Below, one piece after another: positions 36,779 through 53,123 of a stretch of 59,069 nt of DNA (positions are counted from its first letter, which is position 1; every line of letters begins with the position of its first letter). The notes under the pieces are model-generated. The model was not told where the DNA came from and did not search any database. It was given only the letters and a program-made list of their open reading frames with translations. The position numbers and the translations under genes are program-made. The stretch comes from a virus. The DNA is taken from positions 1 through 59,069 of IMG/VR virus record IMGVR_UViG_3300046532_001353; one strand, 5' to 3'.

Positions 36779-37566
36779 TGGCAACATTACCAATGATTAA
36801 CAAAGACAGTTATGTCACAGCAACTTTTGTTGATGCTGAAAGAAAAACTTTAGAAGTTTTAGTAAGGCATCATACAAATGAAAATGAAATGACACCAATT
36901 ATGATTGAGGCTGATGAAGAGCAACAGGATTTTAAAGATCTATTGGAGCTTGTTACTATTGATCAACTTCATGAACAAACATGGGAACAGAAAAAGTCAG
37001 AGAGTGAAGCTTTCATGGCTATGGCAAGGAATATTGCTAAGGAAGAATTTGCACAACAAGAGATGGCAGCGATAACAAACATCGCAGCAAGAGAAGATGA
37101 AACAATTGCAAAGGCTACCGAATCAGTGAATGCAGCTAGTGCTGCTAATGCTGCGGTTGACCAGAATACATTGTTGACAAAGACAAGAATCTATCCTACT
37201 ATTGTTGATACTATTTTTTCAAACATGGAAAATGAAGATCACTTATTTGCTTTAAAGCTTGCATTGTTTGAAGTACAAGAGATTAGAGAATCAACTGACA
37301 CAGCAACTAAGACAGCTTTAAGGAAAGGTAAAAATAAAATTGAAGTATTACAACACGCCTTTACGATTTGCGGTGTAAGAAGAATGGACACTGATGATAA
37401 GGCAGCTACTAAAGCTTCAGATAATGATGCAGCAATAAAAGAACTTGCAGCTTCTACTCAAGCAACTGATGGTGTTCCAGCTAGTGTTAAATTAACTACT
37501 GGTGCTATCTCTAAACAAAAGAAAGCTACAGTTAAAAAGACTACGGCAAAGAAGAAGAAGGCATAA
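36778..37566 (+). CDS. Conserved protein of unknown function with Lys-rich tail, 262 residues
   Basis: Coupled to the preceding gene by TAATG. The N-terminal domain has SYVTATFVDAERKTLEVLVRHH, then DEEQQDFKDLLELVTIDQLHEQTWEQKK; a long Ala/Glu-rich helix covers about residues 75-125. A second domain has IYPTIVDTIFSNMENEDHLFALKLALFEVQEI, read as a helix pair, and the last 20 residues are almost all Lys, Thr and Ala. A virion-associated or assembly role is suggested by its operon. The last 26 bases overlap the end of the convergent glycosyltransferase gene. Confidence 0.62.
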   Translation: MATLPMINKDSYVTATFVDAERKTLEVLVRHHTNENEMTPIMIEADEEQQDFKDLLELVTIDQLHEQTWEQKKSESEAFMAMARNIAKEEFAQQEMAAITNIAAREDETIAKATESVNAASAANAAVDQNTLLTKTRIYPTIVDTIFSNMENEDHLFALKLALFEVQEIRESTDTATKTALRKGKNKIEVLQHAFTICGVRRMDTDDKAATKASDNDAAIKELAASTQATDGVPASVKLTTGAISKQKKATVKKTTAKKKKA

Positions 37567-38122
37567 AATATTTAGACCACCAGCCGGTCCAGCCTTCTTC
37601 CATTAAGTGGTGTAGTTGACCTAACGTAACTATACCCATCGCAGCATGCGGTGTAGTTGTATTAATCTTTGGGCATACTGGATCAAATATATTATATTCT
37701 ATTTCTTTATAATAAAACTCATCACTACCTAAATTATATTTTTCCATATAGACATCTGCATATGGCCAGAACTTTTCCCATATATGAGATACATCACCAG
37801 TCCAAGAAACAATAGATGAGTTGAGAGGTGTATGGCCAAAGTCTGGTCTCCACCACTTATCATCTAACAATGTAAATTCTTCTCTCCATAAGTTTGGTAA
37901 CCTCTTATAGATAACCACATCTAAATCAAAATATAGATTCTGACCATCTCTATACTTGTCATACATCTGGAATTTATTATACCAGTTACCATATAAGTCT
38001 TCTTCGATAACTACAAACTCATCATACTCTATACCTGAATAAGTATCTATCATATGCTTTAAGTTATCAACATGCCATTGAGTAAACTTATCACCGAATC
38101 TGCAACATATTATTCTCTTCAT
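37541..38122 (-). CDS. Glycosyltransferase-like protein, 193 residues
   Basis: Starts MKRIICCRFGDKFTQWHVDNLKHMI and carries NLYFDLDVVIYKRLPNLW with a D66-x-D68 motif, as in GT-A enzymes such as family GT8, where these acidic residues hold the metal and the nucleotide-sugar. The FGDKFT start resembles that of the next upstream gene (FGDKYT), so the two are probably paralogues. Late in the chain are two Trp-rich segments (TGDVSHIWEKFWPY, GWTGWWSKYF). It is the last gene of the minus-strand operon, coupled to its neighbour by ATGA, and runs 26 bases into the opposite gene. Sugar and acceptor are unknown. Confidence 0.68.
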   Translation of the reverse strand: MKRIICCRFGDKFTQWHVDNLKHMIDTYSGIEYDEFVVIEEDLYGNWYNKFQMYDKYRDGQNLYFDLDVVIYKRLPNLWREEFTLLDDKWWRPDFGHTPLNSSIVSWTGDVSHIWEKFWPYADVYMEKYNLGSDEFYYKEIEYNIFDPVCPKINTTTPHAAMGIVTLGQLHHLMEEGWTGWWSKYFMPSSSLP

Positions 38123-38904
38123 TTCCAGTTATCTTCAATCCATTTAAAGTTATGTTCATGTATAGTTTCCTTTGGGCCTAGGAAATGTACTACTTTAATC
38201 TTTGTATTCACATCATCTAAAATCATGTAATCAGCATCAAATGATTTACAATACTTTTGATTAAGTTTAACATTTTTAAAATAGTCTTTCTTTGCACCAT
38301 GATATTTAGCTATCCATTCAGGTGGTGTCTTAGTTATTTTAGTTGGTTTAGATCTATCATCCCAAACCACTTTCCAATTAACATAATTTTGTTCTCCATA
38401 ATATTTGAAATGAACAACATTATCTTTATACCATTTCGTTTGCCAATATTCAGGATTTGTAATAAAGTCATCCCATACAAATGCTAAACTTCCAGATTTA
38501 AATTTATAAAACCCACCGTTTGTTTCTAATGCTAATCCCTGCTCTACTATCTCATCTGAATTCCACCATACACCATAAGTAATTAATTCACCTTCTTCTA
38601 CAGGGTGTCCTATAAGATCATCAACATTACTCGTAATCACTTGGTCAATATCCATTACTATAATATCATCACCTGGAATTTGATATGCATAGTTAGGAGA
38701 AAAGAATTTTAGCTTATGCCAATGTAATTTGACAGGGCTATTACGATTATATGGTAGTACTATATCTGCTTCAACATTAGGATCATCACTGATGCATATA
38801 GATTGGAATTGAATGCTTGAGTTTCTTCTTATACTTCTAAATAGTTTCCCTACATAATCAGGAGTATACTTATCTCCAAAGTACACTGTACATATCTTAA
38901 GCAT
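38119..38904 (-). CDS. Glycosyltransferase-like protein, 261 residues
   Basis: The ATG at 38902-38904 has GGAG 8 bases upstream and gives the start MLKICTVYFGDKYTPDYV; the frame is open a little further, but there is no such site there. The GT-A acidic motif is IIVMDIDQVITS (D85-x-D87). Later are NGGFYKFKSG and a basic, Trp-containing C-terminal half with WIAKYHGAKKDYF and HFLGPKE, typical of the family end (HxxGxKPW in GT8). It overlaps both neighbours, upstream and downstream, and belongs to the coupled operon. Specificity is not readable. Confidence 0.7.
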   Translation of the reverse strand: MLKICTVYFGDKYTPDYVGKLFRSIRRNSSIQFQSICISDDPNVEADIVLPYNRNSPVKLHWHKLKFFSPNYAYQIPGDDIIVMDIDQVITSNVDDLIGHPVEEGELITYGVWWNSDEIVEQGLALETNGGFYKFKSGSLAFVWDDFITNPEYWQTKWYKDNVVHFKYYGEQNYVNWKVVWDDRSKPTKITKTPPEWIAKYHGAKKDYFKNVKLNQKYCKSFDADYMILDDVNTKIKVVHFLGPKETIHEHNFKWIEDNWK

Positions 38905-39757
38905 TGTATGCTCTCCATACACAATCAAAGTCTTTACAAATTGCGTGTACTATCTTTGTTTGTTTTGGAATGAACCCTTGTCTATCAAAGAAGTAATGCC
39001 ATTCATCATCAAGCCATTGTACAGATATCTCATTAACTTGTAATTTATAAGAAAAAATAGTTTCATTATCATACATAAACATATCAAGAATATTCTGAGG
39101 ATATAAACCAGTTGCAGCATACCCATCGCTTTTTAATGATGTCATTAATTCTATTATATGTCTAAACCCACCAAAGTAATCTAGCTCTTTTACTTGTTCT
39201 TTAGTTGCACCAATGATTCCAGTATTGATTACATTATTAGCATGAGGGTAACCACCATCTATTAACATAGCTTGACAATTATAATATTTTGCTGATGGAC
39301 TTCTAATACTATGATTAACTCTTAAGTTTTTATTAATAGCATTGTTATTATGAAGAACACACATACCCTTTGATAGATCCCAAGCATCGAAGAAACTTTC
39401 ATCAGTTAAAGGTACTGCATCAAAATCTAAATATAAAATTTCATCATACTCTTTTGCTAGTTCATTAAGAGCATATATCTTATAAAAGTTTATTACTTCA
39501 TACCCAGTAAACTCTGGAAAGTCTGAAGTAAATTGTTGTTGCCATTTTATATACTCATCATTATAAGTATACATCTTAAAGTCTGCACCAATCTTATAGG
39601 CGTAAGCTTCTTTAGAGTCAACTAATTTATTGTAATGTTCTTTAAAAGCATTAACAGTTTCTTTTGCTTTCTTTACTGTATCATTTTTATTTTTTGAGTT
39701 GCCGAAATGTTGAGTTGCTGGTATGTCAACATAAATACTATATACTATTCTTTTCAT
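38897..39757 (-). CDS. GT8-like glycosyltransferase, 286 residues
   Basis: The core is YKIYALNELAKEYDEILYLDFDAVPLTDESFFDAW, read as a helix followed by ILYLDFDAVPL with D111-x-D113 as the metal-binding DxD motif. Farther on are NTGIIGATKEQVKEL (the family's NTGVF-type segment) and, near the end, PKQTKIVHAICKDF, where His would complete the metal site. Compared with classical GT8 enzymes the N-terminus is longer and more charged. Three GT-A genes in a row suggest stepwise building of a short glycan. Overlaps the methyltransferase gene by four bases (ATGA). Confidence 0.72.
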   Translation of the reverse strand: MKRIVYSIYVDIPATQHFGNSKNKNDTVKKAKETVNAFKEHYNKLVDSKEAYAYKIGADFKMYTYNDEYIKWQQQFTSDFPEFTGYEVINFYKIYALNELAKEYDEILYLDFDAVPLTDESFFDAWDLSKGMCVLHNNNAINKNLRVNHSIRSPSAKYYNCQAMLIDGGYPHANNVINTGIIGATKEQVKELDYFGGFRHIIELMTSLKSDGYAATGLYPQNILDMFMYDNETIFSYKLQVNEISVQWLDDEWHYFFDRQGFIPKQTKIVHAICKDFDCVWRAYNA

Positions 39758-40458
39758 AACTTTCCTATTAATAGGTATCTAGTACCTCTCTCATCTTCTA
39801 ATTCATCCTCTACTAAAACATTTGCTTCAGTAGGTAGTTGTCCTTTAAATTCTTCTATACTATTTACGCAATTAATATGACCTGGTATATCAAACATATT
39901 ATTAGAAGTAAAAGCAAAGTGAGCAGGTTTAACTCTAGTCCACCAAGGATTTTTATATTTCATTCCTCGTTCTTTATTCATCACTCCCCATTCATTCATA
40001 GGTAACATATGTTCGCATGAAGTATTGATAAATATATCTGCAGTGTCAAACATATCTCTATACTTTTCAAATGCATCACCAGTTATCCAAGTAATCTTAT
40101 TATGATTATCGAATAAACGATTATCACCAATCGTAATAGCTTGGTCGTCTATATCAATTGCAGTTATCTTTTTAACTTTATCATGTAGTAATGGTATAAG
40201 AATACTTCCATACCAACAACCAAATATAACAACTTCAGTATCTTTGTTTAAAAGATCTAGTTTATCTAAGTTATTAACTAATAGTGATTTAGCTTTAAAT
40301 TGATTTTCACTATACGAATCAAATATATCTTCTTTACGATCAGGCTCATGTTCAAATATAGTAAATATACTATCAAGTAATTTAAAATTTAAACCTCCAC
40401 CTTGGTTAGATACTTTTAATATATTTTTAATATATGTTAATTCATCTCTTTCTAACAT
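39754..40458 (-). CDS. SAM-dependent methyltransferase
   Basis: The start chosen is the ATG at 40456-40458, which overlaps the preceding stop as TAATG and has GGTGGAG just ahead; a GTG nine bases earlier lacks a site. Motif I is EVVIFGCWYGSILIPLL with an acidic post-I strand KKITAIDIDDQAI; motif II is DMFDTADIFINTSCEHM. This is a class I methyltransferase fold. The C-terminal part has YKNPWWTRVKPAHFAFTSNNMFDIPGHIN, read as a substrate loop rich in aromatic residues. The unusual NTSCEHM segment may take part in binding. Placed between carbamoyltransferase and sugar transferases, a sugar or sugar-acid substrate is plausible. Confidence 0.75.
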   Translation of the reverse strand: MLERDELTYIKNILKVSNQGGGLNFKLLDSIFTIFEHEPDRKEDIFDSYSENQFKAKSLLVNNLDKLDLLNKDTEVVIFGCWYGSILIPLLHDKVKKITAIDIDDQAITIGDNRLFDNHNKITWITGDAFEKYRDMFDTADIFINTSCEHMLPMNEWGVMNKERGMKYKNPWWTRVKPAHFAFTSNNMFDIPGHINCVNSIEEFKGQLPTEANVLVEDELEDERGTRYLLIGKL

Positions 40459-42038
40459 TAGCTCCACCCATCATGAGTTACTTTTTTAATTAACATCCAA
40501 TCATTAATTACTAATATATCTATAGCAGATTCTCTAAAGGTTCTGATAGCATGCCATGGCTCTTCTACAATAGGTTCTTGAGAATTAAAGCTAGTATTTA
40601 ATAACATAGGTATACCTGTTACTTTATAAAACTCATTAATGATATCATAGTACTTCTCATTTTGTTCTCTATTAACTGTTTGTATTCTTGCTGTTCCATC
40701 AACGTGTGTAACACCAGGAATCTTATCGGATATGACCGGCATAATTCTTGACATATATGGAGATGGTTGATTCGTATCAAAGTATTCTTGATAATGTTCT
40801 TCCATTACACTAGGAGCAAATGGTCTAAAGTCTTCTCTCATTTTAATTGAACTATTAATAATTTCTTTTATATCAGGATTACGTGGGTCTGCTAGTATAC
40901 TTCTATTACCTAATGCTCTATTGCCACTCTCAGATTTACCTTGAAACCAACCAACTGTTTTACCATTAGCAATTGCTTTAGCAACTCTTTTCATATTAAG
41001 AGGTTGCCAGAATAGTTGTTCATATCCCCATTCGAATTCTTCATCTTTATTAGGTTTCCAATCATAAGCTTTACCAGCATATGTACTTACTGCATGTTTG
41101 TTACCATTCAATACATAGTTAGCATGTTGGTATGCACCACAGGCTTGACCTTCATCACCTACAGCTGGAGGTACGAAAACATTTTCCCATGTCTTAGTAA
41201 ACTCTTCATTCATATATCCATTATAAGATACACCGCCAGCAACGCAAAGATTATTTGAAGACTTAAGAGGATAAACAAATTCTTTTATTTTATCCATTGT
41301 AAATAACTGAAGCGTATATGCTAGATCTTCTTTCCTATATCTCCTTAAGTCTATGTGTTCAAATTTCTCTTGCTTCTTTTCTGTTATAGGGCCTGACAGT
41401 ATTGTTTCAAATATTTCATAGAAGTAATCATTCCTTTGACCATAAGCAGATAGTCCCATAAGTTTCCCTGCGCCTAATGTACCAAATCCTGTTAGGTTTG
41501 ACATGTGATTCCATAACCAACCAATAGGTAATACATCTGATAGGTTAGTCATCTTTCCATCTCTATCAAAGAAGCAACATCTATATCTATTTCCAATACC
41601 ATCGATAGCTAAGCAGTCTGATTGTTCAAAGCCTGAATTCATAAAGGCGTATGTAGCATGTGATTGATGATGATCTATAAAGTATATACCATCTTTATAA
41701 TAATGATCCCATAAGTTTTTAGGTTGCCAATCAAATATCTCGTCATGGTCTTTTAATATACCTTCAAGTAATTCTGGCTTTGACATTCTTACACCGCCAT
41801 AAGTATAAGTAAATGCTAAGACACCATCATCAGGTTTCTTAAAATATTCTTTTGTAAATTCATCATTCAACCTGTAATCATTAGTGTTTAATATATCTGA
41901 TTGATGAGCATAAGCTTCTGCATGGTAAGGTAAGTTATGCTTAAACCTTGTTTGTCTTTCTCTTTGATTATGCCATACTCCATCATATGTATTATGATCG
42001 TGTAGGTTGAGTGCTACACCCATTATTTTTTTATTCAT
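40458..42038 (-). CDS. Carbamoyltransferase, NodU/CmcH/TobZ family
   Basis: 526 residues, near the usual 550-600. The N-terminal ASKHA-type domain starts IMGVALNLHDHN and carries HHQSHATYAF (H123, H124, H127), the metal-binding His cluster in which carbamoyl-adenylate is made, and DCLAIDGIGNRY. The C-terminal YrdC-like part has GWFQGKSESGNRALGNRSILADPR and MREDFRPFAPSVMEEH, then GIPMLLNTSFNSQEPIVEEP. All expected motifs are present, so it should be active. Family members transfer the carbamoyl group of carbamoyl phosphate, with ATP, to a hydroxyl of a sugar or antibiotic. It overlaps both neighbours. A late-expressed phage enzyme of this type probably carbamoylates a glycan. Confidence 0.9.
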   Translation of the reverse strand: MNKKIMGVALNLHDHNTYDGVWHNQRERQTRFKHNLPYHAEAYAHQSDILNTNDYRLNDEFTKEYFKKPDDGVLAFTYTYGGVRMSKPELLEGILKDHDEIFDWQPKNLWDHYYKDGIYFIDHHQSHATYAFMNSGFEQSDCLAIDGIGNRYRCCFFDRDGKMTNLSDVLPIGWLWNHMSNLTGFGTLGAGKLMGLSAYGQRNDYFYEIFETILSGPITEKKQEKFEHIDLRRYRKEDLAYTLQLFTMDKIKEFVYPLKSSNNLCVAGGVSYNGYMNEEFTKTWENVFVPPAVGDEGQACGAYQHANYVLNGNKHAVSTYAGKAYDWKPNKDEEFEWGYEQLFWQPLNMKRVAKAIANGKTVGWFQGKSESGNRALGNRSILADPRNPDIKEIINSSIKMREDFRPFAPSVMEEHYQEYFDTNQPSPYMSRIMPVISDKIPGVTHVDGTARIQTVNREQNEKYYDIINEFYKVTGIPMLLNTSFNSQEPIVEEPWHAIRTFRESAIDILVINDWMLIKKVTHDGWS

Positions 42039-42870
42039 TTAGTATGCTCGCATATTTTTTAATATTAAAATGTCCTTTCGGCTGTACATATTCTGTACAT
42101 GTCTTACAATAGTTTTCATATTTAAATAATCTGAAGTTCATCATCTTATCTATATTCTCTTGACTGATCTCAAATTCTTTAGAGGTGATTGCATTGTTAG
42201 CAAACTTCTTACTGCAATGAACTATGTTTTGATTTTCAAAGTTAATAACAGGCACCATAGGAAATGCTGCACACATCTTCCTATCTATCTCTGCAGCCTG
42301 TTTAGTTATTTGTATCTCACCAAAATCAGGTGCCCTACCATTAAACTCTTTCCATAATGTATTTTTATTATCTAATTGTTTCATCGCTTCAGGATATAAA
42401 TGTTTATACTTCTCAAAGTTAGGTGTCTTAATAACTAAGTTATAATTATTCATATCATTCTCTTGATGATATTCATAATTGGGATTTCCTAACAACGTGA
42501 TTTCATCTTCATAAAAATCTAATATCATATGCTCAACATATATTATATCGGGATCTGTTAATACTTGCGGCCATCTTCTTCTTACTGTTGAGTTAGATAA
42601 TACCTCACATACATGATTAGGATTGCTTTTAATTTCTGCAATGACTTCATCTAAGTTCTTAACTAACCCAGGCTCACCACCAAGTAAGTTACATCTTACT
42701 TTATAGTTTCTTAAATAGTGTAAGGTACTCCTTAAGAAATCCATGTCAACTGTTAGGTTCCTTTGTTCCAGAGTATAGCTGGTACAATAATGACAATCCT
42801 TATTACAAGTCATTGTCAAAAAGAAGTCTATTGCTAGATAATTATTCTGTACGTCTATTAATTTTATCAT
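42031..42870 (-). CDS. Radical SAM protein, 279 residues
   Basis: The cluster motif is TCNKDCHYC (C22, C26, C29; CxxxCxxC) with the SAM-binding GGEP at 64-67. After the partial barrel come HCSKKF and ENYCKTCTEY (C255, C258), a Cys-rich C-terminal end that may hold a second iron-sulfur cluster, as in twitch/SPASM enzymes. The 279-residue length is short for a SPASM enzyme. Its start overlaps a 100-residue gene by 29 bases, and its end overlaps the carbamoyltransferase start by 8, so all three are co-translated. Substrate unknown. Confidence 0.83.
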   Translation of the reverse strand: MIKLIDVQNNYLAIDFFLTMTCNKDCHYCTSYTLEQRNLTVDMDFLRSTLHYLRNYKVRCNLLGGEPGLVKNLDEVIAEIKSNPNHVCEVLSNSTVRRRWPQVLTDPDIIYVEHMILDFYEDEITLLGNPNYEYHQENDMNNYNLVIKTPNFEKYKHLYPEAMKQLDNKNTLWKEFNGRAPDFGEIQITKQAAEIDRKMCAAFPMVPVINFENQNIVHCSKKFANNAITSKEFEISQENIDKMMNFRLFKYENYCKTCTEYVQPKGHFNIKKYASILNE

Positions 42871-43144
42871 AAAAGAATTTGTTAAATGCTATTAGTAATT
42901 TTTCTTTGGATTTTTCTTTAAACGGAACATCATTCCATTTTGCGTAGTCTGGCATAGTATACATTTTTTCAACTAGATAAGAATATATAGGTTCAACCGG
43001 TTCAATTAAATCTTCATTAAAGATGACATCATCTATTACAAGTTTCATAGTTATACATAACTGTTCTAAAGGCGCATCATCTATTTCCACCATGTTAGCT
43101 TTCTCATCAATTAAAACAATCTTATTGTTTATTATTTCTATCAT
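42842..43144 (-). CDS. Small protein of unknown function, 100 residues, coupled to a radical SAM gene
   Basis: Acidic N-terminal half with short strands (IEIINNKIVLIDEKANMVEI) followed by helix (LEQLCITMKLVIDDVIF) and a C-terminal basic helical half (KEKLLIAFNKFFYDK). It is overlapped at its start by the aminotransferase stop (ATGA) and at its end by the radical SAM gene. Small strand-rich partners next to radical SAM genes often present substrate or bind leader peptides, but I see no recognisable PqqD-type pattern, so this is only position-based. Not recognised. Confidence 0.6.
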   Translation of the reverse strand: MIEIINNKIVLIDEKANMVEIDDAPLEQLCITMKLVIDDVIFNEDLIEPVEPIYSYLVEKMYTMPDYAKWNDVPFKEKSKEKLLIAFNKFFYDKINRRTE

Positions 43145-44202
43145 GCCATTATCATTATAGTATTATAGACTTCACTTATTTCTTCATCAGTTAAATATGG
43201 ATGCATAGGTAATGTAAGTATTGTATCACTTATTAGTTTTGAATTTGGGCAGTCATCTTTTCTATGTACAATATTATCATACATTGGATTTTCAGATATA
43301 GGTCTAGGATAATGTATACTACTTCCTTCTATTTTTTCTTTTATAGAATCTCTTATTTCTTTACTCTTAAACCTCACAACGTATTTGTGGTAAGTGTGGT
43401 CTAAGCCATCAGCTTCATTTATAATAATAATATCATTTACGTTTTTAAGTTCTTCATTATATTTCTCAGCAATGACCTGTCTTTGGAAATTCCATTTATC
43501 CATCTTTGTTAATCTAAAATTAATAAAGTCAGCATTCATACCAAGCATCTTAGAATTATATCCTAGTACTTCATGTTCACCATGCTTTCTTAATTTTCTA
43601 AATAACACCGCTTCTTCTTTGTTATCAGTGAGTACACAACCTCCACCAGCTATACCAGCAATTTGTTTATTAGCATTAAAACTTAATGTACTAATATCTC
43701 CTATTGAACCTGCCATTGTTCTATTTAAACTAGAACCTAATGCTTGACATGCATCTTCAATAAAGACAATACCATTCTCTTTACAAAAAGCTTGTATCTC
43801 TGTTGTGTCAGATATACTTCCGAATAAGAATGGATAAACAATTGCTTTTGTTTTATCACTCACCATATTAAGAATACTATCAAACGATATATGATATGTA
43901 TCTAAATCCACATCACAAAATACAGGAGTAGCTCCAGCTAAAGATACACATGATGCTGATGATATCCAAGAGAAGTTAGTAACTAATACTTCATCATCAG
44001 GTTTAAGATCTAAACTCAATAAAGAAAAAGTTAAAGCATCAGTTCCACTACTACAAGCAACTGCAAACTTTCTACCAGTTAATTCTTTTAACTTCTTCTC
44101 AAGAAATTCTATATTCCTTTCTTGTTCTTTTTGCATTGAGCTATCAAAGAGTTTTAAATACTCTTCTTTATTTTCTAAATATTCTCTATCCCAACCTGTC
44201 AT
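43141..44202 (-). CDS. DegT/DnrJ/EryC1/StrS-type PLP aminotransferase
   Basis: The ATG at 44200-44202 is chosen because GGAGG lies 7 bases ahead; the frame opens slightly earlier with TTG. It yields 353 residues, the usual size. Motifs: CSSGTDALTFSLL (cofactor phosphate), DEVLVTNFSW, FIEDACQALGSS (D150, Q153) and SFNANKQIAGIAGGG with the Schiff-base lysine K179. Substrate-binding ends are SIHYPRPISENPMY and LTLPMHPYLTDEEI. Family members aminate keto-sugar nucleotides (or dehydrate them) for glycan or antibiotic sugars. This gives the operon a clear link to modified amino sugars. Overlaps the first SGNH gene by 17 bases. Confidence 0.9.
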   Translation of the reverse strand: MTGWDREYLENKEEYLKLFDSSMQKEQERNIEFLEKKLKELTGRKFAVACSSGTDALTFSLLSLDLKPDDEVLVTNFSWISSASCVSLAGATPVFCDVDLDTYHISFDSILNMVSDKTKAIVYPFLFGSISDTTEIQAFCKENGIVFIEDACQALGSSLNRTMAGSIGDISTLSFNANKQIAGIAGGGCVLTDNKEEAVLFRKLRKHGEHEVLGYNSKMLGMNADFINFRLTKMDKWNFQRQVIAEKYNEELKNVNDIIIINEADGLDHTYHKYVVRFKSKEIRDSIKEKIEGSSIHYPRPISENPMYDNIVHRKDDCPNSKLISDTILTLPMHPYLTDEEISEVYNTIMIMA

Positions 44203-45753: not shown

Positions 45754-46510
45754 AATGCTTAAATAAAGTTTGTGCTATTAATTCGTGCCCTCCAGCATTA
45801 GGGTGATTATCAGCTTCTGATATTACATAATGGTTAGGCCATTCACCAAACAATGATATATTGAGAGATTCATTTTTCCAAAACAAACAATTATCTATAA
45901 GAGGATCATAGTCATCATATATTTTTTCAATCTCTTTTAATACTTTAGCTTTATCTCCAGAATATGATACTGAATCTTTTTCTCTATCTAACCCGTCATA
46001 TATTATTTGTTGTTCAGTAGGAGGCAATCCTCTAATATACTCTATATACATAGGTATCATTTGAACATGCATAAATTTTAGTGCTTCACTATTGCATAAG
46101 GTTTGAAAGTCAAGATAATAGTTTAAACTTTCATGTAACCATCCAAGTATATCACCATCCTTTTTTATTGGCATTCTTTCATGGCGCCACCTACCATATT
46201 TTCCAAATTGCCAATCTGTTCTAAAACCTTGTGACCATCCAGCTATGATTAATCCTATTCTGTCATTATGAATAGGTGTGTATGTTTTACCGTTATACTT
46301 TTTTGGATGCTTTAGAATAAAATCTCGTAGTGATGAATAGATATAATTATTCCCTGTGCCTGATCTTCCTAGGTTAATACAATCCATATCTAATTTCTCA
46401 GCTAGTAGTTCTGGCCACTTTGGCCAAGAGCAATCTAGAAGTGGATGAGAAGCTGAACGATTGAATGGATCGGTGAAGCTATCACCGGAAACTAGTAAGA
46501 CTTTTCTCAT
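45734..46510 (-). CDS. SGNH-hydrolase-like protein C
   Basis: 258 residues, the first of the three tandem copies in transcription order. It has LVSGDSFTDPFNRSASHP (S11), SWPKWPELLAEKLDM, GRSGTGNNYIYS and ISEADNHPNAGG (D234, H236). The GWSQG segment is kept (IAGWSQGFRTDWQFG). The middle diverges from A and B, which suggests different acceptors or acyl groups. It overlaps the PP-loop gene by 4 bases (ATGA) and is co-translated with it. Hydrolase or transferase activity cannot be told apart from sequence. Confidence 0.77.
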   Translation of the reverse strand: MRKVLLVSGDSFTDPFNRSASHPLLDCSWPKWPELLAEKLDMDCINLGRSGTGNNYIYSSLRDFILKHPKKYNGKTYTPIHNDRIGLIIAGWSQGFRTDWQFGKYGRWRHERMPIKKDGDILGWLHESLNYYLDFQTLCNSEALKFMHVQMIPMYIEYIRGLPPTEQQIIYDGLDREKDSVSYSGDKAKVLKEIEKIYDDYDPLIDNCLFWKNESLNISLFGEWPNHYVISEADNHPNAGGHELIAQTLFKHYEKTYS

Positions 46511-47352
46511 GCGCTAAGAGATTTTAAAGTTCCATCGTAACCTTTTGGAGCCTTACCTATTATTGGTAAATCTTTTATTGGATATAGTTCATCACCAAAT
46601 GCCCAGTTCCTTTCATAACACCAGAAACATTTACCACATACTCGTGTAAAACCCTGTGTCCACCATGCTGTGCCAGTACATGATTTAGTATCTGGATAAA
46701 TTTCTTCAAGTAAAAATTTATGTTGGAAATAAATATCAGCAATAAACTTTTTATCAACATTAATAAATGGTTGGTATACTTGGTTGAAACATGTTTGCCA
46801 GTTGCTTTCATGTGTACGTCGTGGTTCACTTACATCCAAGAAGTCATGCTTTATCATCTCTTCTTCAGTTGGATTTTTTGACATACCATCAAATCTCAAT
46901 GGCTTATCATATTTTAACATGAGATTTCTTGTGATTCTATCTATTAATAATACCTTTGTCATTCCAACAATAGTCATGTCTTTATATCTTTCATAATTCT
47001 TTATACAATACTTAGCATCAGCGAAATGCTTAGGATCTTTATCATCAAATTCAAATACTTGTATATCATTTAAGTTAGCATGTGGAAACTCTTTCTGCAT
47101 CTTTTCAATAAACATTATAGCTGAATCAGCATCGCCCGGAGCATTCAAATCTCTACACGTGTATGGTAACCATTCAATATCTGGAAAATGTGTTAAGCCA
47201 AGATATAATGCTGATGCAGAATCACACCCACCTGATAGTGATACTAAAACTTGTTTAGGTAAACCATTATCGTCAAGTTTAACATCATTCAATGTTTTAG
47301 TTTCTTCATAGGTGAAGAATGGTATCGTTATATTATTATATGTTATTTCCAT
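46507..47352 (-). CDS. QueC-like PP-loop ATPase
   Basis: 281 residues. VLVSLSGGCDSASALYL carries the SGGxDS PP-loop (residues 40-45) that binds ATP in adenylating amidotransferases. Four Cys near the end (C225, C239, C242, C245, with CGKCFWCYERNWAF) match the zinc knuckle of QueC (CGxCxxCxxR...F), with longer first spacing. QueC makes the nitrile of 7-cyano-7-deazaguanine from a carboxylate and ammonia. No QueD, QueE or QueF equivalents are seen, and the radical SAM proteins here do not look like QueE, so another carboxylate may be the substrate. It overlaps its neighbours by 1 and 4 bases. Confidence 0.75.
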   Translation of the reverse strand: MEITYNNITIPFFTYEETKTLNDVKLDDNGLPKQVLVSLSGGCDSASALYLGLTHFPDIEWLPYTCRDLNAPGDADSAIMFIEKMQKEFPHANLNDIQVFEFDDKDPKHFADAKYCIKNYERYKDMTIVGMTKVLLIDRITRNLMLKYDKPLRFDGMSKNPTEEEMIKHDFLDVSEPRRTHESNWQTCFNQVYQPFINVDKKFIADIYFQHKFLLEEIYPDTKSCTGTAWWTQGFTRVCGKCFWCYERNWAFGDELYPIKDLPIIGKAPKGYDGTLKSLSA

Positions 47353-48128
47353 TATGTATTCCTAGTATCTCGCCAAGCTTGTAAAGCTGGTGTAACATTA
47401 AAATATTCTTCATTCTTTATTTTCTTAACTGTATTCTTTGGGTCTGGTCTTGGGAAGTTAGCATAGATCTCTTTCATATTATCTTTAATGTTTCTTGATT
47501 TAGGATCAAAGCCTCTATTTGTTTTAACTAACAATAAAGTAAAGCCTTCATCTTTTGCCATCTGTTTTGCAATTTCTATTTCATGTTCGTTATAACCAAA
47601 TATAATATATTGCCAAACAATAGCTACACCCATTGATTTACCTAATCGCATTGTCTCCCACACCTCATCAAAGTTAGAACCAATACGATACAGTTCACTC
47701 TTTTTATCTATACCATCAACACCAAAATACCAAGCGAACTCATTCATACCATAAGTAAATGCTTCTTCCCACCATTCACGTGTATGACGACCTTTCACTG
47801 ATTGACCACATGTAGCAATCCGTACACCTCTACCTGTACCATCTAACATCTTTAAGAATTCTAGAAAGTGTGGATTATATATTGGATCTGATAGTTGACC
47901 ACAGAATGTTATACAGTGTTGATAGTAATCTATGATCTTTTGAAAGTCTTCTTTCTCTAAATCATATGCTCTCTTAATACGTGGTCCACCTTCTTTCTTT
48001 TGTCTTAAACATTGTGGACACCTTAAGATACATCTATGAGATGAATCAATATTGGGTGAACCCCATACTTCGTTATGTGTATACCAGTCAGCTATACGAT
48101 CAGTAGGTTGTAGTTCTGTAAATCTCAT
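47352..48128 (-). CDS. Radical SAM protein, 258 residues, paired with a SPASM-like protein
   Basis: The cluster motif is HRCILRCPQCLRQ (C33, C37, C40; CxxxCxxC), followed by TFCGQLSDPIYNPHFLEFL at the position of the usual GGEP segment, then GVRIATCGQS and AWYFGVDGIDKKSELYR. Only the partial barrel is present; it ends with YFNVTPALQAWRD and no C-terminal Cys cluster. The preceding gene encodes just such a Cys-rich domain, and the two are joined by a TAATG overlap. SPASM radical SAM enzymes modify peptides or sugars; here the two parts appear to be separate chains. Confidence 0.82.
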   Translation of the reverse strand: MRFTELQPTDRIADWYTHNEVWGSPNIDSSHRCILRCPQCLRQKKEGGPRIKRAYDLEKEDFQKIIDYYQHCITFCGQLSDPIYNPHFLEFLKMLDGTGRGVRIATCGQSVKGRHTREWWEEAFTYGMNEFAWYFGVDGIDKKSELYRIGSNFDEVWETMRLGKSMGVAIVWQYIIFGYNEHEIEIAKQMAKDEGFTLLLVKTNRGFDPKSRNIKDNMKEIYANFPRPDPKNTVKKIKNEEYFNVTPALQAWRDTRNT

Positions 48129-48523
48129 TATATTGTAGATTGTAGATATAAGTTATTATCTTTCTTTAGATTACCACATTTGTATTTACAATGTTTCATT
48201 GCTTGCCCTTGATTATTAAGTAGTGTATCAAAGAAATGATCCCATTCATCTGATAGAAATATATCTTTTAATTCATTAACCTTATTAACTCTAAGGTGTT
48301 CATCTTTTAATCCAAAGTATTCAACACCGTAATCATTCTTTGGATCATCTAGCCAACAGCATGGTAACATAAAACCATCTGATGTATAAGCAGCAGGCTT
48401 ATGATATGACTTAGGGTTAAAGGTTAAACACCGTGGTTTAATCAATAACTTCCATTCACCTATATCAAGCTCTTGTTCCTGATCTTCTTTTTGTTTATTC
48501 ATTGCTGCTTCACTTGAACTCAT
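48128..48523 (-). CDS. Stand-alone SPASM-like iron-sulfur domain protein
   Basis: 131 residues. After a charged N-terminus come PRCLTFNPKSY (C32), GFMLPCCWLDDP (C55, C56), and MKHCKYKCGNL (C112, C116). The PCCW segment followed by a helical stretch (LKDIFLSDEWDHFFDTLLN) and a closing CxxxC is how SPASM domains look at the ends of radical SAM enzymes. No CxxxCxxC SAM motif is present. GGAGAG lies 7 bases ahead of the first ATG, which supports that start over the second Met at residue 8. It probably gives auxiliary clusters to the next gene product. Confidence 0.72.
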   Translation of the reverse strand: MSSSEAAMNKQKEDQEQELDIGEWKLLIKPRCLTFNPKSYHKPAAYTSDGFMLPCCWLDDPKNDYGVEYFGLKDEHLRVNKVNELKDIFLSDEWDHFFDTLLNNQGQAMKHCKYKCGNLKKDNNLYLQSTI

Positions 48524-49314
48524 TACTGTAGCTCTCCATTTAAGTATACATCTGTCACACCTTCAAATGTAGGGAAACGATAAAGACCATCTTCATCTCC
48601 TGTACGACGATCATTAAAAGGTATATCTTTATTTAAAACTTCTTGATGTAATCTCCTATCAACACCGTCCTGTTCATATCCAACACCAATGATAAGTTTA
48701 GCGTTATACACATTATCTTGCGTTTGTTTATTTGTAGGTAATAGTTCACCTATGCCTGGTGAGTCAAGTGCTGAACATATTCCAGTTTTATATCCCATCA
48801 TTGCAGCTGCAAGTATTAATTGACCAACTGAAATTCCAATTGAGAAATCTATCTGCTCTTCATAAATAGTCATTACATTTTTTGATCCACCTTCTTGAGC
48901 TAAGAAGTGAGTGCCACCTCTTACTGTACGACGATCTTCAGTATATACAAACATAGCATTAGCTAAAATTTGAGAATTCTTTATTGAGTAATCATCGTCT
49001 TGCCAGAACTCTCCATCTTTATCTTTAAACATATCTCCATAATCAGCTTTCCCATCTGCGTACATACTGTCTTGGAATTCTGGATTATCAACAGGGAATA
49101 AAGAGAACTTCTTTGTTTGATCATAAATTGCTCTTATCTTTTCCTGGTCAGTGAAAACATGTAATGCATAGTGTGTTTCCATTTGTTTCTTTGGACTATT
49201 TTTAGCAGCATATATTAATGCGTCTAAATCTTCTTGTGGAATTGTTTTATCTAAGTCCCAATTCCTTTGTGCTTGTTTAGATACTTTTGCAGCATCTATT
49301 ATTTGTTGGTTCAT
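48523..49314 (-). CDS. Nitroreductase-family flavoprotein A
   Basis: 263 residues. The N-terminus (RNWDLDKTIPQEDLDALIYAAKNSPKKQ) has the SxR-W/P-type FMN entry of the family, followed by YALHVFTDQEKIRAIYDQT. The middle helix EEQIDFSIGISVGQLILAAAMMGYKTGICSALD and the strand KLIIGVGYEQ match the second half of nitroreductase folds, including the Gly residues at the dimer FMN site. An insertion of about 40 residues (KADYGDMFKDKDGEFWQDDD) is unusual. Members reduce nitro groups or quinones, or oxidise azoline rings, with FMN. It has its own late promoter (49332-49339) and AAAGGAG. Confidence 0.77.
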   Translation of the reverse strand: MNQQIIDAAKVSKQAQRNWDLDKTIPQEDLDALIYAAKNSPKKQMETHYALHVFTDQEKIRAIYDQTKKFSLFPVDNPEFQDSMYADGKADYGDMFKDKDGEFWQDDDYSIKNSQILANAMFVYTEDRRTVRGGTHFLAQEGGSKNVMTIYEEQIDFSIGISVGQLILAAAMMGYKTGICSALDSPGIGELLPTNKQTQDNVYNAKLIIGVGYEQDGVDRRLHQEVLNKDIPFNDRRTGDEDGLYRFPTFEGVTDVYLNGELQ

Positions 49315-49326: not shown

Positions 49327-50733
49327 TTATGTATTTATAATATCTAATCCAGAATCTTTCGGATTGTGATACTCTTCTAATTCAGGGAATACTTCAAATA
49401 GATTCATTTCCCATTTAGTTCCTTTATAATATTCATCATTCTTTAATGCATAATCAAATGTATCTTGATAATCTAATTTCTTTTTAAAATCTGGTTTGTT
49501 AGGTACAAGGCCAACAGGCTCTTCCTTTAATAACTGTTGAATATCTGGAAAGCCTTCGTAAAATGGAATAAGTTTTTCTTTAAGTGGTGTGGGTAATACA
49601 TTAGCACATAACTTAGCAGGGCTTCTAATGTTTGACCAATTAACTTGGTCAAATAAATCTAGATTATCATTAACCCAATCTATTAATTGCCAAAATCTAA
49701 GTACAGATAAAAATGATATAGCTCCATTTATATTTACTGTTACATTTGGATATTGACGAACATGTCTAATGTTATTAACAATCTCTTCCCAATTAGATCT
49801 ACGTCTTATATAATCATTTGCTTTACCCATTGAATCTATTGATACTGTAAATTCAAATACATCAAAATGAGGAATGAATTTTGTAATTTTTAATCTTTCA
49901 AAATCTAATGTAGACATATTAGTTTGATATTTTACTGTCATATTTTTAGCTTCACCTGATTCAACTATTCTTTCTAATAGGTTATAAAACTTTTTCATTA
50001 CTAATGGTTCACCACCAATTAATTTTAGATTATATATGTATGGAGCTATACTAACAATGTCTTCAACGATATCATCTATTGTATTTTTATCTACTTTCTC
50101 TGGACTCTTTTTAGCAAAATCAGAAAAAATATTTTCACCTTGTAATTCATCTGAATGTATTGAAACTAACCTAGTACTAGAATCATATGGAATACACATA
50201 TAACAATCTAAGTTACATGTATTTCCAAAAGCTTTTACTTGTACCTCAAGTAATCTTTCATTAAACGTAATTCTATTATCTCTTTTGAATTCCTCTACAG
50301 CATTACGTATACGTGGCCAAAGCCTCTTATCATTTGATTGAATTTTTAAAGCAGCTTGACGTCTTGACCTTCCAAAATGTTTCTCTTGGTATCTACAATT
50401 CTTACATACTTTTTCTGCAAGTTTAAGATCAGAATTAGGAGTAGTCATTTCTGTACGTAATGCATTTAGTAAAGAATCTTTTTTATAGTATTCTGTGCCT
50501 TTTACGTTTTTAATATTTGGACCTATATTTTCTTCAGCCCAAGAACATGGAATAAGTTCACCTCTAGTACTCGTATAAATCATTTGAAATGGCGCAGTAC
50601 AAAACCAAATATCTTCATCTTTAATTTGATTTTCTAAGTTAGGTATTTGTTCAAACCATTTACTAGTATCTACTTTGCCACCACCTAAGAACTTATCACC
50701 TGGCCCACCTTTTGTTAATTTTGTATTAATCAT
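49327..50733 (-). CDS. Twitch/SPASM-type radical SAM protein, 468 residues
   Basis: The N-terminal part (residues about 40-120) has WFCTAPFQMIYTSTRGELIPCSW (C45, C63) and VCKNCRYQE (C110, C113), a Cys-rich domain of SPASM type placed ahead of the barrel. The radical SAM motif is NTCNLDCYMC (C173, C177, C180), with GGEP at 240-243 and FEFTVSIDSMGKANDYIRRRSNW, which is typical of twitch radical SAM proteins in cyanophages as I recall. The C-terminal 90 residues are helical. Domain order is reversed compared with most SPASM enzymes. It overlaps the isochorismatase-like gene by 4 bases; AGAGGA lies ahead of the ATG. Confidence 0.83.
   Translation of the reverse strand: MINTKLTKGGPGDKFLGGGKVDTSKWFEQIPNLENQIKDEDIWFCTAPFQMIYTSTRGELIPCSWAEENIGPNIKNVKGTEYYKKDSLLNALRTEMTTPNSDLKLAEKVCKNCRYQEKHFGRSRRQAALKIQSNDKRLWPRIRNAVEEFKRDNRITFNERLLEVQVKAFGNTCNLDCYMCIPYDSSTRLVSIHSDELQGENIFSDFAKKSPEKVDKNTIDDIVEDIVSIAPYIYNLKLIGGEPLVMKKFYNLLERIVESGEAKNMTVKYQTNMSTLDFERLKITKFIPHFDVFEFTVSIDSMGKANDYIRRRSNWEEIVNNIRHVRQYPNVTVNINGAISFLSVLRFWQLIDWVNDNLDLFDQVNWSNIRSPAKLCANVLPTPLKEKLIPFYEGFPDIQQLLKEEPVGLVPNKPDFKKKLDYQDTFDYALKNDEYYKGTKWEMNLFEVFPELEEYHNPKDSGLDIINT
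49332..49339 (-). promoter_or_regulatory. Internal T4-type late promoter
   Basis: A minus-strand TATAAATA inside the last codons of the 468-residue radical SAM gene, 17 bases ahead of nitroreductase A. Confidence 0.65.
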
Positions 50734-51335
50734 TTAAATCCTCTTTTAAGTGGATTTAAATATCTAAATAATTCATCCTCTATAAGAAATCGTTCAATAG
50801 TAATCTTTTTCATAAGGCCTTCTTTTTTTATAACTTTATATAATGTTGTAAATGCTAACATGTTTTTATCAGCCGAGTTAATACCACCAATTTGATATTC
50901 ACCACACATAGGAAGATATATTGTTACATCATGTCCAGCCTTAGCCCATTCTATTGCAGAATAACCTGTAGATCTTAAAACACAACCAGCAGTATTACAA
51001 CCTCCTATAATAAGTTTTTTTATATTATATCCTCTCTCAGCTGCTAACAGTTGAATGTCAGAAACGTTATAGCCTGCATCAGCATCAAAGGTTATCCAGT
51101 CATGCTGGCCATCTGCTCTTGCCATTTTTTCTACTTCTGTAGTTTTTGGATGTTTATCATGATTATCAGACATGATTAAAAATGATCTATGTGAGTTATT
51201 GATCTTATCTTCTGGCATACCATATATCAATCCATTCAAACAGGCATAGCGAAGCTCATTCATATAATCATCACCAAGAATAGGGTGACCTTCAAAGTCA
51301 ATTAATAGTATAGTAGTTTTATCTTTCAGTGTCAT
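50730..51335 (-). CDS. Isochorismatase-fold cysteine hydrolase-like protein
   Basis: 201 residues. TILLIDFEGHP supplies the acidic residue D13, and LIIGGCNTAGCVLRSTGYSAIEWAKAGHDVTIYLP, read as GGCNTAGCV plus helix, supplies C118 at the position of the family nucleophile (GxxTxxCV). C113 lies nearby. The conserved Lys of the family triad should be in the strand before GY..SD, but WITFDADAGYNVSD has none. The protein may have a different chemistry or only bind its ligand. It lies between two nitroreductase genes and has its own late promoter. Confidence 0.7.
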   Translation of the reverse strand: MTLKDKTTILLIDFEGHPILGDDYMNELRYACLNGLIYGMPEDKINNSHRSFLIMSDNHDKHPKTTEVEKMARADGQHDWITFDADAGYNVSDIQLLAAERGYNIKKLIIGGCNTAGCVLRSTGYSAIEWAKAGHDVTIYLPMCGEYQIGGINSADKNMLAFTTLYKVIKKEGLMKKITIERFLIEDELFRYLNPLKRGFK

Positions 51336-51347: not shown

Positions 51348-51355
51348 TATTTATA
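51348..51355 (-). promoter_or_regulatory. T4-type late promoter
   Basis: Minus-strand TATAAATA, 12 bases ahead of the isochorismatase-like gene and overlapping the end of nitroreductase B. Confidence 0.65.
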
Positions 51356-52067
51356 TCCAGCGAATTACTTCCTCTGGCTCAGGCTTCCTATCGTCTATAT
51401 CACCTTGTGGTTCAAACTTTTTCTGCCACTCTCTTTTAGATACTTTACACTTACCAATAGTTTGCATCAACATAACAGGATGATCTACACCTGGAATATC
51501 TTGCCAACCATCTTCGTAATCACCTGGGAAACAAAGAGTTGTTGAAGTATCTAATCCTTCTTCTAAAGCAAATGCTCCTAGGTTAGCAGCAAACATTCCA
51601 ACTTCTATAGATACACCTCTAATAATATTTGGCATTTCTGATAAATGCATTGGTTCATAATAGTCTCCTTCTTCTACATTCTTTTTATACATAGCGTTAG
51701 GTTCACAAAGTCTTTGACTATAGACTATAAGGTAAGGTGCTGTCTTAACATGATTAAAGAAAATATTAGTGCCTTCCTCTTCCCATTCAGTGATGTCATT
51801 ATCTATAACACCTGGTGTAGTTTTATCTCGTGGAATGTTATTTTCATTAGTCATCTTTTTATTATTCTTAGATAACTGCCATATCTTCTTGCCCAAAGCC
51901 ATTTGGTCTGGTCCATATACATTTACATGATATGGCATAAAGTTATTTTTAGAAGGTGTGACTTTCCATGCTTTCCAAAGAACTTTTTCTATTAATGCTT
52001 TATCGGGAATTTCTTTATCCCAATTCATTACATGTCTTCTACTTCCTATTAATTCTAATGCGTCCAT
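51351..52067 (-). CDS. Nitroreductase-family flavoprotein B
   Basis: 238 residues. It starts ALELIGSRRHVMNWDKEIPD, the SRRSxR/xFxxxxIP pattern of the family, followed by WKAWKVTPSKNNFMPYHVNVYGPDQ (a SGxNxQPW-like FMN segment). The second half has VSIEVGMFAANLGAFALEEGLDTSTTLCFPGD and PVMLMQTIGKCK. It is only distantly similar to nitroreductase A. In natural product clusters such enzymes work as FMN oxidases or reductases. A site (GGGAGAA) and a late promoter at 52094-52101 lie upstream. Confidence 0.8.
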   Translation of the reverse strand: MDALELIGSRRHVMNWDKEIPDKALIEKVLWKAWKVTPSKNNFMPYHVNVYGPDQMALGKKIWQLSKNNKKMTNENNIPRDKTTPGVIDNDITEWEEEGTNIFFNHVKTAPYLIVYSQRLCEPNAMYKKNVEEGDYYEPMHLSEMPNIIRGVSIEVGMFAANLGAFALEEGLDTSTTLCFPGDYEDGWQDIPGVDHPVMLMQTIGKCKVSKREWQKKFEPQGDIDDRKPEPEEVIRWI

Positions 52068-52093
52068 AATTATTTCTCCCGGTTATTTATTAC

Positions 52094-52101
52094 TATTTAT
52101 A
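52094..52101 (-). promoter_or_regulatory. T4-type late promoter
   Basis: Minus-strand TATAAATA, 26 bases ahead of nitroreductase B, at the end of the glycosyltransferase gene. Confidence 0.65.
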
Positions 52102-52103
52102 TA

Positions 52104-53123
52104 TTAAGAAGATCTACTATTTCTCAACAATTCTATCCAAAGTTTGTCGTTATGAACAACTTCCTTTGCATTATTTTTTGCAAGGTAAAAGTCTACACCA
52201 TCAGCCTCTGGTAAATTACCTATTTGTTCTCTATGGTTTGCTGAAGCTAACTCAGTCTCTATTGTTATCTTACCATCTAATGTATCCAGAGCAGTTATGA
52301 TTGGCCCGATATCTTGGTTCTTTAATCCACGTTTCCAATACCAATAACCACCATCTTGTACAGGATTGGTTCTATGATAAATTATTTCTTTGCCTAACCA
52401 TCTTGCTTCTTGAAATAATCTTGGAGCAGGATCAAATGTTTCTTTAGTATAAACATATGTTTTAAATTTGCCTAACAGATTATCAACAGGACATCTCAGA
52501 TTATTATTCTCTAAGTCTAAATATTTTTGAGGATAAGTTAATATGCCATGATCAGGATATTCACCTATTATTTTTTGTAATGATTTATAATATTCTGGAT
52601 TAGTTCCTAAGAATAAATGATCGAATTGAATATCTTCTTTAACTTCTTTGTATACGGGGAAGTGTATTATCTTTTCGAAATGTTCTCCAATACCATTAGG
52701 ATAAACATCTGTATCACATAAATCAATAATTCTTTTTGGTTTAAAAAACTTTAAAGCTTTAGGATATTTTTCAGGATGATTCTCTGAATAAACAGAAACA
52801 AGGTTGCCACTAAATAATTTTTTAACAGAAGCTTTTTGCATATCACTATAATCATTCCAAGTCATATGAGCTAAGGTTAGCATACTCCTACCCATAATTA
52901 ATGTTAAAGAATCATCGAACACAAATTCATTATTAAAGACTATGTTTTGACAATGAATATACTTATCTTTAATAGCATCAGTATAATCACCTGAAGTAAA
53001 ATCCCTATGTGTTATAACATATACCTGAGCTTGAATACCCTTCTCATTCAAGTGGGAACAATATTCATAACTATAAAACAGTAAACCATCTGCTGGTTTA
53101 CTGGTACATACTATATTTAACAT
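52104..53123 (-). CDS. Glycosyltransferase, GT-B-like, 339 residues
   Basis: The N-terminus (LNIVCTSKPADGLLFYSYEYCSHLNEKG, read as a strand followed by a helix) is the Rossmann start of GT-B enzymes. The middle holds NLVSVYSENHPEKYPKALKF, KRIIDLCDTDVYPNG and FDHLFLGTNPEY; the second half has YVYTKETFDPAPRLFQEARWLGKEIIYHRTN, where FDPAPRLFQEA is like the donor-binding E-containing segment of GT1/GT4. It is the first gene of the minus-strand island under the divergent late promoter. Donor and acceptor are unknown. Confidence 0.7.
   Translation of the reverse strand: MLNIVCTSKPADGLLFYSYEYCSHLNEKGIQAQVYVITHRDFTSGDYTDAIKDKYIHCQNIVFNNEFVFDDSLTLIMGRSMLTLAHMTWNDYSDMQKASVKKLFSGNLVSVYSENHPEKYPKALKFFKPKRIIDLCDTDVYPNGIGEHFEKIIHFPVYKEVKEDIQFDHLFLGTNPEYYKSLQKIIGEYPDHGILTYPQKYLDLENNNLRCPVDNLLGKFKTYVYTKETFDPAPRLFQEARWLGKEIIYHRTNPVQDGGYWYWKRGLKNQDIGPIITALDTLDGKITIETELASANHREQIGNLPEADGVDFYLAKNNAKEVVHNDKLWIELLRNSRSS

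Follow-up and report, generated by a model that had tools for sequence, protein, structure and literature searches.

The window considered here is the whole stretch of 59,069 nucleotides of the IMG/VR virus record IMGVR_UViG_3300046532_001353 (positions 1 to 59,069), and the subject is an island of 19 consecutive minus-strand open reading frames (ORFs) running from base 53123 down to base 37541. Its genes encode predicted glycosyltransferases (GTs), radical S-adenosylmethionine (SAM) proteins and a set of further enzymes described below. Three junctions leave small gaps of 12, 15 and 36 bases; at all others the genes overlap by 1-32 bases. The initial annotation, which had reported about 20 genes with overlaps of 1-29 bases, was right about the mostly overlapping minus-strand run. 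Because relatives keep the gene order, the island is a real gene set and not a chance run of ORFs.

The record itself is a fragment of a T4-like marine phage, as indicated by baseplate hub, wedge and tail-tube PHROGs at the left end of its 59 kb; the virus record and the baseplate genes rule out a bacterial (host) origin. The gp6 protein is closest to that of Methylophilales phage Melnitz (40%), followed by those of Pelagibacter phages HTVC008M (35%) and Mosig (34%). Directly after gp8, in the position of VrlC in Mosig, lies a gene of 1740 amino acids (aa) with 35-36% identity to the genes of Mosig and of a relative of 170,818 bases, G200 (79% identical to Mosig in its capsid protein). The arrangement is that of a pelagimyophage host recognition cluster: in a T4-like genome, a VrlC-like gene and fibres come after the baseplate genes, and conserved modules flank a hypervariable GT-bearing region. 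Cultured members of this T4-like phage group mostly infect SAR11, which outnumbers every other bacterial group in the ocean.

Genes of the island and their late promoters

The genes that recur in relatives will be called the backbone. At the head of the island, in the direction of transcription, is GT339 (52104-53123), which gave no family hit; its predicted structure (pLDDT 75) matches mostly GT-B glycosyltransferases, at low TM. Further on lie SGNH1 (44186-44992) and its paralogues SGNH2 (44989-45753) and SGNH3 (45734-46510), which share one sequence cluster and resemble SGNH/GDSL hydrolases or acyltransferases, with matches under the cut-offs for SGNH1 (PF00657, E 0.003) and SGNH3 (PF13472, E 6e-4). 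The DegT/DnrJ sugar aminotransferase (43141-44208; PF01041, 2e-81, 274 bits) has the scyllo-inositol transaminase 7b0d, QdtB and WbpE as its best solved relatives. Between DegT and rSAM_C stands u100 (42842-43144), a protein of 100 aa for which the family scans gave no hit. The match in Mosig covers only about 65% of u100 and stands beside a longer DegT frame (419 aa), and the two may be fused there.

The rest of the backbone follows without interruption. rSAM_C (42031-42870) is a radical SAM protein, above the cut-off of PF04055, with a twitch-like set of cysteines in its alignment. The NodU/TobZ-type O-carbamoyltransferase (40458-42038; PF16861, 1e-65, 220 bits, with PF02543) is 69% identical to that of Mosig, and its best solved relative is TobZ (2.5e-53), with which the HHxxH and IDG motifs and the C-terminal domain align. 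A SAM-dependent methyltransferase-like gene (39754-40467; PF13649, E 2.6e-4, under the cut-off) precedes a GT8-family glycosyltransferase (38897-39757; PF01501, 24.8 bits against a cut-off of 24.3) and the glycosyltransferase GT2 (38119-38928; PHROG 1962). The last gene, GT1 (37541-38122), is GT-A-like with a DxD motif (YFDLDVVI), of which FDLD is invariant in the alignment.

The other genes vary among relatives and will be called cassette genes. NTR_A (51351-52067) is a nitroreductase-family protein slightly under the cut-off of PF00881 (22.9 against 23.5 bits), whose profile matches PDB nitroreductases, including 3gag. It is followed by a cysteine-hydrolase (nicotinamidase/isochorismatase) fold protein (50730-51335), which had no family hit and only spurious matches in a PDB profile search. 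Its AlphaFold model (pLDDT 79) has, by Foldseek, the nicotinamidase SaPncA as top PDB match (prob 1.00, E 2e-4), and its alignment holds Asp13 and Cys118 invariant and lacks an invariant Lys of the catalytic Asp-Lys-Cys. Next is rSAM_A (49327-50733), an N-terminal-twitch radical SAM enzyme that passes the N_Twi_rSAM model NF033640 with 270.9 bits against a cut-off of 170, of which rSAM_B and rSAM_C fall short. NTR_B (48523-49314), a nitroreductase-family protein above the PF00881 cut-off, is followed by a protein of 131 aa (48128-48523) with invariant cysteines and no family hit. It weakly resembles the N-terminus of rSAM_A in its motif (hhalign P 0.005, probability 7%) and is possibly a detached twitch/SPASM-like domain for rSAM_B (47352-48128), a radical SAM core protein above the PF04055 cut-off. 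The last cassette gene encodes a QueC-like PP-loop enzyme (46507-47352), with an SGGxDS motif, four invariant cysteines and 21.3 bits against the QueC cut-off of 22. PDB profile searches returned nothing for GT339, the PP-loop enzyme and rSAM_A.

The enzyme classes named in the initial annotation are thus present, with assignments that range in the family profile scans from above cut-off (the three radical SAM proteins, DegT, the carbamoyltransferase, GT8 and NTR_B) to marginal (NTR_A, the SGNH genes, the methyltransferase and the QueC-like protein). The fold predictions that it had called for support its isochorismatase-fold protein and, with matches at low TM, its fourth glycosyltransferase; the separate SPASM-like protein is unproven.

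When would these genes be expressed? The T4-type late promoter word TATAAATA occurs 17 times in the window, and at 11 of these sites a gene on the same strand starts no more than 60 nt downstream; by position 2.5% of sites would be expected to be so placed, and permuted words of the same composition give 6.4%. Four of the sites precede island genes on the minus strand, namely GT339 (53153-53160, 30 nt ahead of the gene), NTR_A (52094-52101), the cysteine hydrolase (51348-51355) and NTR_B (49332-49339); a fifth (53163-53170) precedes a divergent operon. In addition, the annotation of Mosig includes a late sigma factor and a late-transcription accessory protein. The late promoters proposed from the first reading are therefore confirmed as sequence features, and late expression of the island is an inference with good support.

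Backbone, cassettes and exchange of the locus

A search of 2.9 million viral contigs with rSAM_A and rSAM_C yielded 63 loci whose rSAM_C proteins are distinct. Loci were taken from the best 80 matches per search, the contigs are fragmentary, ORFs were called mechanically and the counted sequences are related to one another, and the counts that follow are to be read with this in mind.

In all 63 distinct loci the order GT339, SGNH, DegT, u100, rSAM_C, carbamoyltransferase, methyltransferase, GT8, GT2, GT1 is kept for the members held. Where the contig was long enough, DegT was found in 52/52, the carbamoyltransferase in 38/39, the methyltransferase in 34/34, GT8 and GT2 each in 31/31, GT1 in 28/30 and GT339 in 27/39; at least one SGNH gene is present in 46 of 47 relatives, and u100 is conserved in 15 of 20 full-length ones. 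The cassette genes are variable and occupy differing slots: NTR_A 14/20, rSAM_A and NTR_B 9/20 each, cysteine hydrolase and PP-loop 8/20 each. rSAM_B, found in 18/20, usually adjoins the 131-aa protein. Judged by gene order, then, the island is a fixed backbone of about ten genes plus exchangeable radical SAM, nitroreductase, cysteine-hydrolase and PP-loop cassettes, and this picture replaces the single pathway of 20 coupled genes that had first been suggested.

Do the cassettes share more with the backbone than an address? In G200 the backbone lies at 109-119 kb, adjoining g303 and g262, the two genes that border the island in the window; a tail-tube-like gene and uvsY flank an rSAM_A-NTR_A-hydrolase-rSAM_A group at 158-162 kb, and an NTR_B-131aa-rSAM_B-PPloop group lies at 85-88 kb. 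Strong rSAM_A copies occur in 7/7 long records with the backbone and in 0/5 without it (12 records; Fisher P 0.001, or 0.002 once two near-identical records are merged, with relatedness inflating both figures). Gene fusions point the same way. In the closest relatives GT339 is fused to an rSAM_A domain, and GT339 of the window is a cut-down remnant of that fusion, in which the linker and the first twitch-domain residues are readable before the stop and the radical SAM part is lost; in another relative, L028, the PP-loop enzyme is fused to rSAM_A. Because the cassettes are dispersed within the G200 genome, because rSAM_A follows the backbone and because of these fusions, the data argue that cassettes and backbone belong together. 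The expectation that the set would travel together therefore holds for the backbone, for which no independent scattering was seen; it was seen in part for the cassettes, which move and yet stay in genomes with the backbone. The small group rSAM_A-nitroreductase-cysteine hydrolase(-rSAM_A) recurs in L016, L017, L022, L029, L031, L037, L051 and at 158-162 kb of G200, placed between the second tail-tube-like gene after gp23 and uvsY, among T4 core late genes.

As for the origin of the backbone, rSAM_C has 331 relatives in viral contigs against 3 in 84,980 genomes, and it appears to be a phage-only family. The three exceptions, contigs of metagenome-assembled genomes (MAGs), are themselves phage-like and offer no cellular home: two have g262/g303, joined in one of them by fibre genes, and a third, short contig holds backbone genes only. 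A role as a viperin-type defence protein was also rejected, since rSAM_C reaches 29.8 bits against a curated cut-off of 180, and PADLOC hits of about 35 bits span no more than the shared radical SAM core.

The island sits at a fixed place between the fibre genes and a conserved late operon. On the fibre side, and on the plus strand, a fibre-like protein of 1416 aa (31544-35794), co-located in relatives, adjoins g303 (35867-36778), a Ser/Thr-rich (27%) fibre-region protein; then comes g262 (36778-37566), a virion-region protein convergent with GT1, which it overlaps by 26 bases. Beyond GT1, g262 was found in 23/25 loci and g303 in 22/25.

What happens at this place when phages diverge is best seen in a close relative, G207/L233 (G207: 140,543 bases), in which most baseplate proteins are 67-84% and the right flank 78-89% identical to the window. 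In G207 the 16.4 kb and 19 genes of the window, from g303 to base 53159, are replaced by 3.2 kb encoding, all on the opposite strand, g262', a small GT-like protein, a methyltransferase, GT8 and GT2; nucleotide identity with L233 resumes at window base 53159. Mosig presents the reverse case, with core baseplate and tail proteins only 26-46% identical to those of the window, while the carbamoyltransferase, rSAM_C, DegT and GT1 reach 60-71%. Since a close relative has the island replaced while distant Mosig shares the backbone, the exchange resembles that of a serotype locus, and by these comparisons the locus passes from one phage lineage to another without changing its position. On the same evidence a change of island goes along with a change of g262 and of the fibre gene: in G207 the g262 protein is 24% identical and the fibre nearly absent, and in relatives with the same island g262 is 45-53% identical and the fibre partly conserved.

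Two observations belong beside this comparison. The G207 gp6 gene (104319-106198) consists of three open pieces (76%, 65% and 72% identity), which suggests frameshifts or assembly errors. To the right of the exchange boundary, the divergent late operon (53176-57752, plus strand) stays put when the island is swapped. It starts with an Asp/Arg hydroxylase-like gene (PF05118; 53176-53805), the first gene right of the boundary, and further encodes a 181-aa protein, a one-helix DUF6356 protein, a class IV aminotransferase (PF01063), an IMPDH/GMP-reductase-domain protein (PF00478) and a 240-aa AMP-binding ligase domain.

A proposed glycan, for the virion or for the host

The backbone combines three GT-A-like and one GT-B-like glycosyltransferase with DegT, the O-carbamoyltransferase, the methyltransferase, SGNH proteins and a dedicated rSAM_C. 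A sugar chemistry is suggested because TobZ is the closest solved carbamoyltransferase, because the DegT relatives are sugar or cyclitol enzymes and because the carbamoyltransferase loci of SAR11 are sugar loci. The explanation that we put forward, for and against which the case is about evenly balanced, is that T4-like marine phages of the pelagimyophage group express the island late, exchange it among themselves and use it to make a glycan, which is placed on fibre-region virion proteins. The backbone would build a short amino-sugar oligosaccharide, carbamoylated, methylated and possibly acylated, wholly in the cytoplasm. Twitch/SPASM enzymes carry out oxidation, deoxygenation or epimerisation of sugars in aminoglycoside pathways, and the pairs of radical SAM and nitroreductase proteins may alter sugar carbons in one of these three ways. 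The finished glycan would then be attached to virion proteins of the fibre region, with g303 as candidate acceptor or partner and g303, g262 and the fibre as prime candidates overall. Variation of the glycan would change binding to the host surface or recognition of the virion, and phages would thus exchange glycan and fibre loci as units.

The link to g303 supports a virion target. All 63/63 g303 loci with at least 4 kb beyond g303 carry a GT1-, GT2- or GT8-like gene there, and 49 loci with distinct g303 proteins divide into 28 with the carbamoyltransferase island and 21 with another GT island. As in a virion glycosylation locus, GTs are encoded beside structural genes and co-occur with them. 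Among isolates, g303, rSAM_C and GT1 were found in Mosig only, where g303 is Mosig_00097; the fibre and baseplate regions fetched from HTVC008M and Melnitz hold neither the island nor g303.

The strongest competitor is a late modification of the host envelope, in which the glycan is added to the lipopolysaccharide (LPS) core or another surface glycan and blocks superinfection or the re-adsorption of progeny to debris. It is a serious reading, though a rather unlikely one. Such a role is the published inference for pelagimyophage host recognition clusters (PMC7029224), the whole-locus swap recalls serotype loci, and GT8 is typical of LPS core pathways. SAR11 surface-glycan islands also use the same enzyme classes: a NodU-type carbamoyltransferase occurs in 113/197 SAR11 genomes, beside nucleoside diphosphate (NDP)-sugar dehydratases, DegT, radical SAM/SPASM proteins and methyltransferases. 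However, SAR11 glycan islands encode proteins with two or more predicted membrane helices in 7/146 ORFs, the phage islands in 0/832 (P 1e-6). The 19 proteins of the window include none of the membrane proteins of Gtr-type serotype conversion (GtrA flippase, GtrB, multi-pass GT), and no Wzx/Wzy flippase or polymerase, ABC exporter or NDP-sugar synthesis gene was found among the 19 genes. GT1 has 2 weak matches in the 197 SAR11 genomes, and GT8 is absent from 196 of them, the one match being a phage contig in a MAG. The late promoters stand beside virion genes, and at that stage an altered envelope would be of little use to a lytic phage. Since SAR11 shares the classes, multi-pass proteins are lacking and GT1 and GT8 are on the phage side, the chemistry appears to be of the surface-sugar type, yet its assembly looks cytoplasmic and phage-specific. 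One SAR11 region with a strong N_Twi_rSAM match (L188), a 23-kb contig with laminin-G and PNKP-type genes, may be viral and was not used in this comparison.

Of the two targets named at the outset, a glycan on virion proteins or a changed host surface, the glycan-type gene set, the late promoters and the fibre neighbours stand, and the balance leans toward the virion without settling there. Glycosylation of fibre or virion proteins is favoured over a change of the host envelope, a preference that we hold with middling confidence. Several points weigh against it. The product, its acceptor and the chemistry of the virion are all predicted from genes alone, and so is the host, for which the baseplate genes point to SAR11 or Methylophilales. 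The GT8 enzymes of LPS core pathways are also cytoplasmic and have no membrane helices, and an LPS target is therefore compatible with a locus that has no flippase. The linkage to g303 could merely reflect a shared hypervariable site, and the phylogenetic non-independence of the sequences inflates the counts. A sugar role for the nitroreductases and the cysteine hydrolase is a guess, and their small cassette also stands alone beside tail-tube and uvsY genes. The published reading of such clusters is modification of the O-chain (PMC7029224).

The solitary position of that small cassette in several pelagimyophages also supports another, improbable explanation, namely that the cassettes have a product of their own, a small molecule or modified peptide, cofactor-like or akin to ribosomally synthesized and post-translationally modified peptides (RiPPs), and share only the locus with the GT backbone. 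Twitch radical SAM proteins are indeed common in RiPP pathways. However, rSAM_A is confined to long genomes with the backbone, its fusion with GT339 links it to a glycosyltransferase, and no RiPP precursor or recognition-element family was hit, in a search that was not exhaustive for precursors among small ORFs.

Hypermodification of DNA, with the carbamoyltransferase and its partners acting on hydroxymethylated bases, is very improbable indeed: a phage 5-hydroxymethylcytosine (5hmC) carbamoyltransferase of the same superfamily is known, but it co-occurs with PF00303 (dCMP hydroxymethylase/thymidylate synthase), and in unmodified contigs GTs flank the enzyme (PMC8670742), while here PF00303 was found in 0/8 records (Mosig and 7 others), which led us to reject 5hmC carbamoylation. 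QueC-like and radical SAM genes also occur in DNA modification clusters; a 7-deazaguanine pathway was rejected because the PP-loop protein stays under the QueC cut-off with no NCBIfam hit and nine other island proteins scanned gave no QueE, QueD or FolE above cut-off.

Relation to known systems

Returning to the virion glycan, which known systems does the locus resemble? The closest are the pelagimyophage host recognition clusters of Zaragoza-Solas et al. 2020 (PMC7029224). Common to both are the phage group, the position downstream of VrlC and baseplate genes with tail fibres, the hypervariability, the glycosyltransferases with GT8 as the commonest, and radical SAM cassettes mentioned in passing. 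The paper lists GTs and proposes O-chain modification; as far as its searched text goes, it has no description of the fixed DegT-rSAM_C-carbamoyltransferase-methyltransferase-GT backbone, of nitroreductase, cysteine-hydrolase and PP-loop cassettes, of the link to g303, of the lack of membrane proteins or of a swap of the whole island.

Among isolates, Mosig EXVC030M (60990-71305), which is in culture together with its host, Pelagibacter HTCC1062, has the shared order GT339, rSAM_B-like, SGNH, DegT, rSAM_C, carbamoyltransferase, methyltransferase, GT8, GT2, GT1, g262, g303. It lacks rSAM_A, the cysteine hydrolase, the PP-loop enzyme and NTR_B, and it was annotated gene by gene and not as an island, which its genome announcement does not discuss. 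Far from the island, the Mosig genome (MT647606.1) has a second cluster of GT, sulfotransferase and methyltransferase genes at 124832-130666, and it has unusually many 2-oxoglutarate-Fe(II) oxygenase genes.

The search for a paper on the backbone, on the nitroreductase/hydrolase/PP-loop set or on the exact gene set found none. The initial annotation knew of no description either, and this stands for the exact set; the type of locus was reported in 2020 (PMC7029224), and the backbone is present in the isolate Mosig. The backbone, the swap and the cassette logic look new in detail, and the kind of locus is known.

The surface-glycan islands of SAR11 share enzyme classes (carbamoyltransferase, DegT, radical SAM/SPASM, methyltransferases, GTs). 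They differ in a carbamoyltransferase of about 33-35% identity, in having NDP-sugar dehydratases or epimerases and membrane exporters, and in the lack of GT1 and GT8. The virion glycosylation loci of mycobacteriophages carry GT and methyltransferase genes beside structural genes, and their glycans are on virion proteins. Those are other phages and other enzymes; the island adds radical SAM, carbamoyl and amino-sugar functions, and its glycan is predicted from genes. The tailoring of aminoglycosides shares the chemistry, with a TobZ-like carbamoyltransferase, a sugar or cyclitol aminotransferase and pairs of radical SAM and reductase proteins. Only these classes match, and no aminocyclitol scaffold genes were found.

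Taken as a whole, the comparisons invite a bolder proposal, which we hold with less than middling confidence: ocean T4-like phages may glycosylate their own fibres with combinatorial, radical-SAM-tailored, carbamoylated amino-sugar glycans, and may exchange island and fibre genes as a "virion serotype", independently of the remaining genome. Should the backbone of ten genes, with its interchangeable radical SAM cassettes, set the glycan on the fibres, or on the host, the locus would be a phage counterpart of bacterial serotype loci and a chief lever on host range in the ocean, where pelagimyophages prey on SAR11. It would also be a source of new radical SAM sugar chemistry.

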